Assembly (NCBI RefSeq): GCF_001005825.1
Contig: NZ_LBHV01000004.1
Span: forward strand, 372,001 to 436,000
DNA length: 64,000 nucleotides
Direction of reading: 5' to 3'
Origin: Rhizobium sp. LC145
GTDB taxonomy: Bacteria; Pseudomonadota; Alphaproteobacteria; Rhizobiales; Rhizobiaceae
The notes beneath the pieces are model-generated. The model was not told the origin of the DNA, did no database searches, and saw nothing but the letters and a program-made list of their open reading frames with translations. A program made the translations under genes and the position numbers. Positions 28,306-31,691 of the stretch are shown piece by piece (positions within the stretch are counted from its first letter, which is position 1; each line of letters starts with the position of its first letter).

Positions 28306-29199
28306 TCAGAGTTCCGCTTCCGCAAACACCTTCACGATCCAGTCGACAAAGACGCGCACTCGCGGCGCCAGTTGACGGTTCTGCGGATAAAGAACGGAAA
28401 GCGGCGTGGGAGATGGCGGAAAATCGGCGAGAACCTCGACGAGAAGCCCCTGATCGATGTCCGGCTGCAGCCGGTAGCGCGGAGCCTGCATGAGGCCGAA
28501 GCCGCGGCGGGCGAGATCGACCATCGTATCGGAATTGTTGACCGTCAGCCGGCATGGCAGGGTGATGTTGCGCACCTCGCCTTCCACCGTGAATTCGAGC
28601 GGCATGATATGGCCGGTGCGCGACGAGATGAAGCCGATAGCGGCATGTCCGTCCAAGGCATCGGGCGAGGCCGGCATGCCATGCTTCTCGATATAGGCCG
28701 GACTGGCGCAGGTGATCTCGGTGATGAGCCCCAGCTTCCGCATGATCAGCCCGCTGTCGGTGATTTCGCCCGCGCGGATGACACAATCGACGCCTTCCCG
28801 CACGAGATCCACCAGCCGGTCGCCCTGGCCGATCTGCAGATCGAGCAGCGGATAGCGGTCGAGGAATTCATCGAGCCGCGGCAGAAGGACGGTGCGGGTC
28901 AGATGACCGTGCGCATCGACCCGGAGCAGACCCCGCGGCTGGGTATCGCGAAAGATGTTCTCCGCCTCATCCACTTCCGCGAGGATCGCAAGACAGCGCT
29001 GGTAGAAGGCCTGGCCGTCGAGGGTCGGCGTGACGTGGCGGGTCGTCCGCTCCAGGAGGCGCGCGCCGACATCGCTTTCCAGTTGCTTGACCGCCTCGGT
29101 GACTGTCGAACGGGCAAGACCGAGATCGGCGGCCGCGGCGGTGAAGCTGCGCCGTTCGACGATCCGGACGAAGAGCTGCATGCGGTCGAGACGATCCAT
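28306..29199 (-). CDS. LysR family transcriptional regulator
   Basis: The protein has an N-terminal winged helix (MDRLDRMQLFVRIVERRSFT, STVTEAVKQLE) and a LysR substrate domain (GLLRVDAHGHLTRTVLLPRL). It is divergent from the SDR/tautomerase operon, which it probably controls. A GTG start five codons earlier (29214) is possible; neither start has a clear ribosome site. Confidence 0.9.
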   Translation of the reverse strand: MDRLDRMQLFVRIVERRSFTAAAADLGLARSTVTEAVKQLESDVGARLLERTTRHVTPTLDGQAFYQRCLAILAEVDEAENIFRDTQPRGLLRVDAHGHLTRTVLLPRLDEFLDRYPLLDLQIGQGDRLVDLVREGVDCVIRAGEITDSGLIMRKLGLITEITCASPAYIEKHGMPASPDALDGHAAIGFISSRTGHIMPLEFTVEGEVRNITLPCRLTVNNSDTMVDLARRGFGLMQAPRYRLQPDIDQGLLVEVLADFPPSPTPLSVLYPQNRQLAPRVRVFVDWIVKVFAEAEL

Positions 29200-29299
29200 G
29201 GCTTTGTTCACCACGGGCGAATTCTAATGTCAAATCACGCATGATTGTTCTCTATCGGTGCCAGCAATATCTCTTGCCCAACAACCAAGGAGAATTGCC

Positions 29300-30040
29300 A
29301 TGACCACAGACAGAGAACGCGTCGCGATCGTAACCGGAGCCTCGAAAGGGATCGGCGCGGCCATCGCGCGGCGGCTCGCCAGGGACGGCATCGCCGTCGT
29401 CGTGAATTACGCAACCAGCCGCGGGGCCGCAGACGCCATCGTCGCGGAGATCGAGGCGGGCGGCGGCAAGGCGGTCGCGGTCCGGGCCGATATCGGCAGC
29501 CCGAGCGGCATCGTCGACCTGTTCGACGCCGCCGAGGAAAGCTTCGGAGGCGCCGACATCCTCGTCAACAATGCCGGCATCATGAAGCTCACGCCGCTGA
29601 TCGAGACGGATGACGCGACCTTCGAGCAGCACATCGCCATCAACCTGACCGGCACGTTCCGCGGCATCCGCGAAGCAGGCCGCAGGCTGCGCGACGGCGG
29701 ACGCATCATCAATTTCTCGTCCAGCACCGTCGGTGTCTATGGCCCGGGTTACGGCCCTTATGTCGCCAGCAAGGCCGCCGTCGAGGCGATGACCCATGTC
29801 GCTTCCAAGGAGCTCGGCAAGCGCGCAATCACGGTCAACGCGGTCGCTCCCGGTCCGATCGAAACCGAGCTCTTCATGAACGGCAAATCGGACGAACTGG
29901 TGCAGAGGATCGTGGGCACCATCCCGCTCGGCCGTCTCGGCCAACCGGAGGAGATCGCCGAGGTCGTCGCTTTCCTGGCAGGCCCGCAGGGCGGCTGGGT
30001 GAACGGCCAGGTGCTGCGCGCCAATGGCGGCATGATTTGA
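29300..30040 (+). CDS. short-chain dehydrogenase/reductase (3-oxoacyl-ACP reductase-like)
   Basis: The 246-residue protein has the SDR cofactor motif TGASKGIGAAIARRLA, the NNAG motif (ILVNNAGIMKL) and the catalytic Ser/Tyr/Lys set in INFSSSTVGVYGPGYGPYVASK. It uses NAD(P)H on an unknown carbonyl substrate. CAAGGAGAA precedes ATG 29300. The gene is followed after 19 bases by the tautomerase gene, and the two form an operon divergent from the LysR regulator. Confidence 0.9.
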   Translation: MTTDRERVAIVTGASKGIGAAIARRLARDGIAVVVNYATSRGAADAIVAEIEAGGGKAVAVRADIGSPSGIVDLFDAAEESFGGADILVNNAGIMKLTPLIETDDATFEQHIAINLTGTFRGIREAGRRLRDGGRIINFSSSTVGVYGPGYGPYVASKAAVEAMTHVASKELGKRAITVNAVAPGPIETELFMNGKSDELVQRIVGTIPLGRLGQPEEIAEVVAFLAGPQGGWVNGQVLRANGGMI

Positions 30041-30059
30041 ACCCAACAAGGAGAAGCCA

Positions 30060-30278
30060 ATGCCTTTCGTCAACATCAAGACGCCGGAAGCGGCGCTGAC
30101 CCGCGCCCAGAAGGAAGAGATCGTGCACCGCACGACGGACATGCTCGTCGAATACCTGAGCGAGGCGGCGCGGCCGCACACCATGGTCCTGATCGAGGAG
30201 GTCAAGGACGGCGGCTATGGCCGCGCCGACGAGATCTTCGTCATGCCTGATGCCTACAGGGCCAAAGAGAGCGATTGA
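30060..30278 (+). CDS. 4-oxalocrotonate tautomerase family protein
   Basis: The 72-residue protein begins MPFVNIKTPEAALTRAQKEE; removal of Met exposes the catalytic N-terminal Pro1 of the tautomerase superfamily. The family isomerises unsaturated keto acids through a Pro1 base. Its substrate here is unknown. CAAGGAGAAG precedes the ATG, mirroring the site before the SDR gene. It is the second gene of that operon. Confidence 0.87.
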   Translation: MPFVNIKTPEAALTRAQKEEIVHRTTDMLVEYLSEAARPHTMVLIEEVKDGGYGRADEIFVMPDAYRAKESD

Positions 30279-30393
30279 ACAGCAGCGACGCGGTTTGCCG
30301 CGTCGCCCATCTACCGCCCTGTTGTTTATAGGAACCGGCAGGCGACCCTTCCCCTTCCCCTACAGAACGAATGCCGACTGCGCTGCGCCATAT

Positions 30394-30409
30394 GCAGGTA
30401 ATTGCCTGC
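30394..30409. promoter_or_regulatory. upstream ArsR-type operator copy
   Basis: GCAGGTAATTGCCTGC is an imperfect palindrome almost identical to the one inside the promoter 25 bases downstream, suggesting that two regulator dimers bind on nearly the same face of the helix. It ends 2 bases before the -35 element. Confidence 0.72.
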
Positions 30410-30411
30410 GC

Positions 30412-30441
30412 TTGACATGCAGGCATTTACCTGCATATTAT
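30412..30441 (+). promoter_or_regulatory. arsR-cluster promoter with embedded operator
   Basis: A consensus -35 TTGACA (30412-30417) and -10 TATTAT (30436-30441) are spaced by 18 bases. The spacer is occupied by the palindrome ATGCAGGCATTTACCTGCAT (30417-30436), with 7-bp perfect arms. A repressor bound there would block RNA polymerase directly. The ArsR start is at 30466. Confidence 0.82.
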
Positions 30442-30465: not shown

Positions 30466-30786
30466 ATGGACGCAGACAAGTTCTTCAAGGCGCTTGCCGA
30501 CCCGACCCGCAGAAAGCTGCTCGACCTTCTCTACGAGAAGAACGGGCAGACGCTGAGCGAGCTTTGCGAACAGCTGGACATGGCCCGGCAATCCGCCACG
30601 CAGCATCTTGGCATCCTGGAGGAAGCCAATCTGGTGAACACGGTCAGGCGAGGCCGGGAAAAGCTGCATTTCATCAACCCCGTGCCGCTCCATGAAATCT
30701 ACGAGCGGTGGGTGCGAAAATTCGAACGTCAGCGGCTCGGCCTGCTGCACGATCTCAAGAAAGAACTCGAAGGAGAGAAGAAATGA
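30466..30786 (+). CDS. ArsR family (HTH_5) transcriptional regulator
   Basis: The 106-residue protein begins MDADKFFKALADPTRRKLLD and carries the winged helix TLSELCEQLDMARQSATQHL. It lacks the CVC-type metal motif of ArsR; the only cysteine is in the helix region, so it belongs to the metal-independent group found before SRPBCC genes. It probably represses its own promoter through the two palindromes upstream. Its stop overlaps the next start (ATGA). Confidence 0.9.
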   Translation: MDADKFFKALADPTRRKLLDLLYEKNGQTLSELCEQLDMARQSATQHLGILEEANLVNTVRRGREKLHFINPVPLHEIYERWVRKFERQRLGLLHDLKKELEGEKK

Positions 30787-31247
30787 CCAGAGAGACCATC
30801 AGCTTCGTCTATGTGACCTATATCGCCGCGACACCGGAGAAAGTGTACGAGGCCATTACCAAACCCGAACTTGCCCGGCGTTACTGGGGCCATGAAAACG
30901 TGTCCGACTGGCGGCCCGGATCGAAATGGGAGCATGTCCGCGCCGATGACAATCGCAAGATTGAGCTCGTCGGCGAGGTCGTGGAGGCGGCCCGGCCGAG
31001 CCGCTTGGTCATCACCTGGGCGGGCGCTTCGCAGGCTGCCGACCCGGCAAGCTACAGCCGGGTGACCTTCGAGATCGAGGAATACGAAGACATGGTGCGG
31101 CTGACCGTAACCCATGACGAGCTCGAAGCCGGCAGCGCCATGGCGAGCGGCATCACCAAAGGCTGGCCAGTCGTTCTCTCCAGCTTGAAATCCTTCCTGG
31201 AAACCGGCCGCGGTCTCGATGTCTTCGCCAAGCCGAAGGCGGCCTGA
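30783..31247 (+). CDS. SRPBCC (AHSA1-like) family protein
   Basis: The 154-residue protein has the START-like AHSA1 pattern: FVYVTYIAATPEKVYEAITK, then ARRYWGHENVSDWRPGSKW and SRVTFEIEEYEDMVRLTVTH. The fold makes a hydrophobic cavity for small ligands, and many are encoded directly behind an ArsR gene, as here with an ATGA overlap. The ligand is unknown. It may protect against or sense a hydrophobic compound (inference). Confidence 0.88.
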   Translation: MTRETISFVYVTYIAATPEKVYEAITKPELARRYWGHENVSDWRPGSKWEHVRADDNRKIELVGEVVEAARPSRLVITWAGASQAADPASYSRVTFEIEEYEDMVRLTVTHDELEAGSAMASGITKGWPVVLSSLKSFLETGRGLDVFAKPKAA

Positions 31248-31274: not shown

Positions 31275-31691
31275 ATGGCCAAGTTCTATACAGGCGGATG
31301 CGCGTGCGGCGCGCTCCGTTACCAGACGAGCAGCGACCCCATCTTCGAGAACCACTGCCAATGCCGTGATTGCCAGAGGCGAAGCGGCACCGGACACGGG
31401 TCTTATCTAAGCTTCCCGCAGCGAGCCGAGGTCAGGATAATCGGCAAGGCCTCGGAGTGGAGCGTGACCGCCGATAGCGGGAGCGAGAAGGCCTATGCCT
31501 TCTGCCCCACATGCGGAACACCGGTCTACGTGACATTCGCCGCAATGCCGGAAGCGATAGCAATCCATGCGGCCAGCCTGGACGATCCGGATCAATTCAA
31601 CCCGCAAGCGCTCACATACAGCATTCGCGGCCACACATGGGACACGACCGATCCCTCGCTGCAGACATTCGAACGGCTGCCGCCGGGCTGA
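31275..31691 (+). CDS. GFA family zinc protein (glutathione-dependent formaldehyde-activating-like)
   Basis: The 138-residue protein has the GFA/CENP-V zinc sites: GGCACGALRY at the N terminus, HCQCRDCQRRSG near residue 30, and FCPTCGTPVYV near residue 77. The family was named after Gfa, which speeds the condensation of glutathione and formaldehyde, but most members have unknown substrates. It follows the SRPBCC gene by 27 bases and is probably the third gene of the cluster. Confidence 0.87.
   Translation: MAKFYTGGCACGALRYQTSSDPIFENHCQCRDCQRRSGTGHGSYLSFPQRAEVRIIGKASEWSVTADSGSEKAYAFCPTCGTPVYVTFAAMPEAIAIHAASLDDPDQFNPQALTYSIRGHTWDTTDPSLQTFERLPPG

Follow-up and report, generated by a model that had tools for sequence, protein, structure and literature searches.

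What controls the promoter ahead of a small arsR gene in Rhizobium sp. LC145, and to which kind of signal might it answer? The window, a stretch of 64,000 nucleotides (contig NZ_LBHV01000004.1, positions 372,001 to 436,000 of the forward strand), places this gene behind an unusually explicit promoter. A promoter scan located a -35 hexamer TTGACA (30412-30417, forward strand) and a -10 hexamer TATTAT (30436-30441, forward strand), which together match the consensus at 11 of 12 positions. The entire spacer between them is taken up by an 18-nucleotide palindrome, TGCAGGCATTTACCTGCA (30418-30435, forward strand), the putative primary operator, with 7 of 9 pairs complementary. Another palindrome, TGCAGGTAATTGCCTGCG (30393-30410, forward strand; also 7 of 9 pairs), was found upstream by repeat search and genome pattern search and is a candidate auxiliary site. 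The two palindromes lie 25 bp apart from centre to centre, and in the repeat search they match each other as reverse complements at 19 of 20 positions. Two promoter-like sites were found in 2 kb against 0.5 expected, both of them being the arsR promoter in two registers. The original prediction had described twin palindromes, with centres 25 bases apart, around a consensus -35, the second of which fills the 18-base spacer up to TATTAT; the sequence, the repeat search and the promoter scan agree with it in coordinates and letters. The pair is not a product of chance, because TGCAGGYAWWTRCCTGCA, allowing at most one mismatch, occurs at these two places only in the 5.88-Mb genome of the strain (G000, 35 contigs).

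The arsR gene (30466-30786, forward strand, ATG start) encodes an ArsR/SmtB-type winged helix-turn-helix repressor of 106 residues, with start and length as first claimed. The protein matches HTH_20 (PF12840, 5.2e-14) and HTH_5 (PF01022, 6.8e-10) above cut-off, and the winged-helix fold is supported by a fold search of its structure model (pLDDT 85.7), which returned ArsR folds. The recognition helix comprises residues 41-53 of the model; the codons of Q42, S43, A44, T45 and Q46 are at 30589-30603 (forward strand), and residues 42, 43 and 46 are the proposed specificity residues. The stop codon of arsR overlaps the start of the next gene on the same strand (ATGA at 30783-30786). This gene encodes an SRPBCC/AHSA1 protein of 154 residues (30783-31247, forward strand; AHSA1 PF08327, 1.4e-23), placed as COG3832-type on its Pfam match. 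After a gap of 27 bp follows a gene of the GFA family (glutathione-dependent formaldehyde-activating type; 138 residues, 31275-31691, forward strand, 3.7e-26), which is probably the third gene of the arsR operon.

Judged from sequence, this promoter very probably drives an ArsR-SRPBCC(-GFA) operon that controls itself, with ArsR acting as an autorepressor that would block RNA polymerase. We infer that an ArsR dimer binds the palindrome in the 18-bp spacer and so keeps sigma-70 RNA polymerase out, and that another dimer, bound to the upstream palindrome, would cover the -35 from its upstream flank and strengthen repression. A signal would release ArsR and let the strong promoter fire the operon, whereupon newly made ArsR would shut the promoter again. 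The SRPBCC protein, made together with ArsR, may serve as sensor or co-sensor.

The generality of this arrangement was assessed in 236 non-duplicate arsR loci, including that of the window. A first set of 128 comprises four places in the strain's own genome, 49 more from 297 genomes of the family and 80 named loci, minus five duplicates; a second set of 108 was sampled from the phylum and from two classes, that of genome G385 and that of a Streptomyces genome, minus seven duplicates. Exact duplicates alone were removed, and near relatives inflate the counts. The scan for the architecture was blind to operator letters and required, within 700 bp upstream, a 5/6 match to TTGACA, followed by an 18-base stretch in which 5 or more of the 7 outer pairs are complementary, and then a T. 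The spacer dyad was found in 181 of the 236 loci, as compared with 33 of 4,720 shuffled regions, and only 1 of 236 equal stretches taken from the gene onward passed the same scan. The -35 is TTGACA in 153 of these 181 loci, and the mean -10 score across the 181 peaks at a spacer of 18. The hosts include Rhizobiales, Variovorax, Rudaea, Archangium and Streptomyces. Thus, a palindrome in the spacer is usual in the ArsR-SRPBCC family rather than a curiosity of the window, and the sites, whose lack of conservation at orthologous loci would have spoken against the original prediction, are conserved there. The dyad is below the scan threshold in 55 of the 236 loci (13/128 in the first set, 42/108 in the second), and the 42 misses of the second set are rich in distant helix classes. 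One relative whose ArsR is 82% identical (L115) was missed by the scans and by inspection has a degenerate version of the promoter.

The upstream twin is less general. Among 167 loci with an operator within 200 bp, 42 have another site whose arms match the half-site of the same locus at 10 or more of 12 positions, as compared with 17 of 3,340 shuffles. It is upstream in 26 loci, at -25 in 12 (including the window), at -28 in 10, at -29 in two, and at -30 and -59 in one each; in 16 other loci the extra copy is instead 24-37 bp downstream and can fall downstream of the -10. The remaining 125 of the 167 loci have no second palindrome by this criterion, a close orthologue (L022, 90%) among them. 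This absence would suit the explanation that the spacer palindrome alone is functional and that its upstream copy is decaying and has no effect. We regard this explanation as rather unlikely, although it is the strongest of the alternatives, since the excess over shuffles, the spacings of 25 or 28-30 bp in 25 of the 26 upstream cases and the downstream counterparts in 16 loci all count against it. The twin palindrome is real and optional; of the twin-palindrome control first proposed, the spacer palindrome stands as a general feature and the twin does not.

Across the loci, the letters of the operator half-site vary with the recognition helix of the ArsR protein. The helix MARQSATQH goes with the half-site TGCAGG, MTRQGVTQH with mostly GCAAG, MTRQAVTKH with TGCAACC, and MTRFGVMKH with GTGAC. 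A rule was fixed before testing: at half-site position 4, Q at residue 46 demands G and K demands C; at position 5, S at residue 43 demands G and A or G demands A. T43 and R46 fall outside the rule. The first test concerned loci with a leading gene or a longer leader before arsR, which were pooled with the training set in later counts. All five S43/Q46 loci have TGCAGG, and the four A43/Q46 loci have TGCAAG, in both halves in two of them and in one half in the other two. In the second test, the operator was found in 66 of the 108 new loci, and the held-out half-sites match the rule in 125 of 128 cases at position 5 and in 123 of 130 at position 4. For the 63 new loci to which both parts of the rule apply, 246 of 252 letters match, as compared with a mean of 154 and a maximum of 192 when the labels were shuffled (5,000 shuffles). 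The pair S43/K46 had no training example, and GC, as the single parts of the rule demand, is present in 13 of its 16 half-sites. A further association was noticed after testing: Q at residue 42 goes with CA at positions 7-6 (291/294 half-sites), and F with TG (50/56). Position 8 is G in 361 of 362 half-sites.

The training set departs from the rule in three half-sites of 230 at position 5 and in eight of 230 at position 4; these include 8 of 182 S43/Q46 half-sites, both half-sites of L131 (G43/Q46, with AT) and one of L133 (A43/Q46, with GG); L126 (A43/Q46), which was too weak for the training scan, also has one GG half. In the test set, position 5 departs in one half of L226 and both halves of L241, both S43/K46 loci, and position 4 in one half each of L172, L177 and L178 and in both halves of L196 and L260, which encode T43/Q46 proteins and have T at position 4. 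On a tree built by a quick method from 181 rows with the recognition helix masked, residue 43 and residue 46 have each changed at least five times, position 5 at least eight times and position 4 at least four times. A strict test of independent pairs retains one supported pair per residue, too few for power, so the argument for a code rests on the fixed rule, the held-out loci and the combinations of residues.

These results suggest that residue 43 is predictive of operator position 5 and residue 46 of position 4, which appears to be new: our literature search, with most subscription journals outside its reach, found no published recognition-helix code for ArsR proteins, and the comparable work on specificity codes that it did find concerns the LacI, GntR and IclR families. 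Structures of NolR or CzrA with DNA exist. The code is probably modular: position 4 would depend on residue 46 and position 5 on residue 43, and positions 7-6 vary with residue 42 (Q with CA, F or Y with TG, P with TA), with G8 fixed. Since the operator is at the same time the promoter spacer, promoter and repressor would be mutually predictable across phyla. The autoregulation of arsR through its palindromes, as originally proposed, gains strong support from this covariation of protein and operator together with the conservation described above. As a circuit, the arsR promoter is ordinary; what gives it value is its shortness, its occurrence in several phyla and a regularity that lets the letters of the repressor be matched to those of the operator. 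If the code were confirmed, regulons could be predicted for a large ArsR subfamily and a ready set of orthogonal switches would be at hand, since genomes could supply orthogonal pairs of repressor and promoter.

How many targets the repressor has was addressed by the genome search that had been recommended with the original prediction, which at up to one mismatch returned the arsR promoter pair and nothing else. Allowing up to three mismatches to TGCAGGYAWWTRCCTGCA, 28 sites were found in the strain's own genome, as compared with 7 for the reversed control pattern. Two of these are the arsR promoter sites, and 13 of the other 26 (L009-L021) were inspected. Nine of the 13 are inside open reading frames of at least 300 codons (L010-L012, L014-L019), and L009, with two mismatches, lies between rpoA-like and rplQ-like genes, recognised by eye from their first residues. 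No additional target was found among these ten weak sites, and L013, L020 and L021 are unassigned. The detectable regulon in this genome is therefore its own operon, comprising arsR, the SRPBCC gene and probably the GFA gene. The site at L020 (contig C9, 35502-35519) reads TGTAGGTAGTTACCTACA, an operator-like palindrome with T for C at position 7.

The exact sequence TGCAGGNANNTNCCTGCA was also searched in 30 orthologue genomes. It gives 26 forward matches in 23 genomes and is missing from the other 7, and the reversed control gives none. By comparison with the arsR places, 25 of the 26 matches are the arsR promoter, and in genomes G207 and G214 both palindromes match. The exception, at 321099-321116 in G207 (L247, contig C1, 319500-322700), is a TTGACA-operator-TATCTT promoter outside the arsR operon; about 190 bp downstream, on the same strand, begins an open reading frame of 256 codons whose product resembles an NAD(P)/F420-type reductase. 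It is a possible extra target in G207.

The locus belongs to the ArsR-COG3832 (Aha1/SRPBCC) operons published by Makarova et al. in 2009, an ArsR subfamily without metal-binding motifs (PMC2701414, available in part): it has the arsR helix-turn-helix, the adjacent SRPBCC gene and no CxC pair. The same gene pair is reported there, with several copies in each genome for Rhodococcus, Mesorhizobium and others, whereas operators, promoter architecture, a specificity rule and a GFA third gene do not appear in the available part of that account. In the structure database the best match by sequence (7.6e-9) and by fold (1.0e-5, 36% identity) is 3F6O, the solved ArsR-family structure of RHA00566 from Rhodococcus, the record title of which gives no function.

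The one member of the subfamily with a mapped operator in the literature that we could reach is Rv2034 of Mycobacterium tuberculosis, an ArsR autorepressor footprinted on CCGTAAGT-N4-ACTTACGG (PMC3338718, available in part). As in the window, the next gene, Rv2035, is of the polyketide-cyclase type, and the palindrome can be aligned in the same register (G8, A5, G4); the half-site is GTAAGT as opposed to GCAGG, and further targets (dosR, phoP, groEL2) are claimed in the available text, whereas none was detected for the window's ArsR. From G8, A5 and G4 in the half-site of Rv2034, the rule demands A or G at residue 43 and Q at residue 46. In 394 actinobacterial genomes, searched with the footprinted site alone and with at most one mismatch allowed, the Rv2034-type site was found in nine, once in each. 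Seven of the nine sites have an adjacent ArsR, all of them A43/Q46 (helix.SRPAVSQH), and no ArsR-like gene was found at the other two.

An ordinary ArsR metalloregulator, sensing a metal or a thiol by binding the inducer itself, would be a second explanation of the circuit. ArsR scores 65.9 bits against the NCBIfam model HTH_metalloreg (cut-off 55), and 106 of the 107 proteins of the window's helix class retain a helix-3 cysteine, C34. Against the SdpR autorepressor family NF033789 it is ArsR's 52.9 bits that stay below the curated cut-off of 100. The protein shares the winged-helix fold of the metalloregulators ArsR, SmtB and CzrA without their CxC thiolate site. A CxC pair is absent from all 236 ArsR proteins, which bears out the initial statement that the protein has no metal-thiolate motif and leads us to reject classical CxC metal sensing. 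By eye, no His/Asp metal-site motif of the helix-5 kind was seen in the ArsR sequence. The "metalloregulator" label of the matching model finds no support in the sequence. C34 is absent from all 34 F42-G43-K46 proteins, 28 of which are behind the same promoter architecture. According to the available part of the report, none of seven metals elicited a response of Rv2034 in a reporter strain, and five of the metals were also tried in vitro, although the single cysteine of Rv2034 is needed for activity (PMC3338718). We thus consider a metal- or thiol-sensing ArsR improbable. The earlier suggestion that the inducer is probably not a metal is reasonable, given the lack of CxC, and in view of C34 a thiol-based signal is conceivable.

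In the first set of 128 loci, the SRPBCC gene is next after arsR in 102, fused to it in 16, divergent in 5 and not found in 5; a GFA gene comes third in 63 of 92 S43/Q46 loci and in none of the 36 others. The least probable account, which we consider very unlikely, is a toxin-antitoxin module with ArsR as antitoxin-repressor, the SRPBCC (COG3832) protein as toxin and twin operators serving conditional cooperativity: the pair was nominated as toxin-antitoxin-like by genome statistics and, as here, consists of small adjacent genes in an operon, but the 2009 paper itself, in its available part, ranked antibiotic resistance as more plausible (PMC2701414), a predicted COG3832-ArsR pair of Stenotrophomonas maltophilia, not necessarily an orthologue of the window's, was non-toxic in E. 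coli, with the same outcome stated for the native host although those data are not presented (PMC7650669, available in part), and the common GFA third gene and the ArsR-SRPBCC fusions are a poor fit to a releasable toxin.

The same fusions make the SRPBCC domain the first candidate for a sensor. The SRPBCC fold is known to bind hydrophobic ligands, and we tentatively propose, as a speculation with somewhat less than even chances, that the SRPBCC protein is the sensor or co-sensor of the operon; the fusion could instead reflect shared regulation. Fused proteins are encoded in Streptomyces, Saccharothrix, Symbioplanes and alphaproteobacteria, and both Pfam domains are present in all nine that were scanned. 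The model of a fused protein has a mean pLDDT of 79.8, with the linker (residues 99-112) under 50. In eight actinobacterial fusions (L128-L130, L135, L138, L140, L148 and L149) the ArsR part is about 68-73% identical to that of the window, and the operators are of the TGCAGG type, with one altered half in L140 and in L138. The occurrence of such similar fused ArsR proteins with TGCAGG-type operators in actinobacteria is a hint that repressor and promoter may have been transferred horizontally as a unit.

Other arrangements are found within the collection. At L152 the sole TTGACA-operator is 944 bp upstream of arsR, before an open reading frame of 280 codons with a signal-peptide-like stretch, and this operon may have gained a leading gene. 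Seven paralogues (L002, from the strain's own genome, and L064-L069) encode ArsR proteins about 41-44% identical to that of the window, with the helix DRCTVMQH, and have an AT-rich palindrome (GTTATA...TATAAC) right at the start codon; the SRPBCC gene is divergent in five of the seven. These represent a different operator placement within the same wider family. In the window itself, a separate small unit beside the arsR operon (28306-30278) consists of a short-chain dehydrogenase gene, a tautomerase gene and, divergent from both, the gene for a LysR-type regulator. Just past the tautomerase stop codon is a perfect 9-bp inverted repeat with a 4-nucleotide loop and without a T run (30285-30306), which may shield arsR from the upstream dehydrogenase and tautomerase genes.
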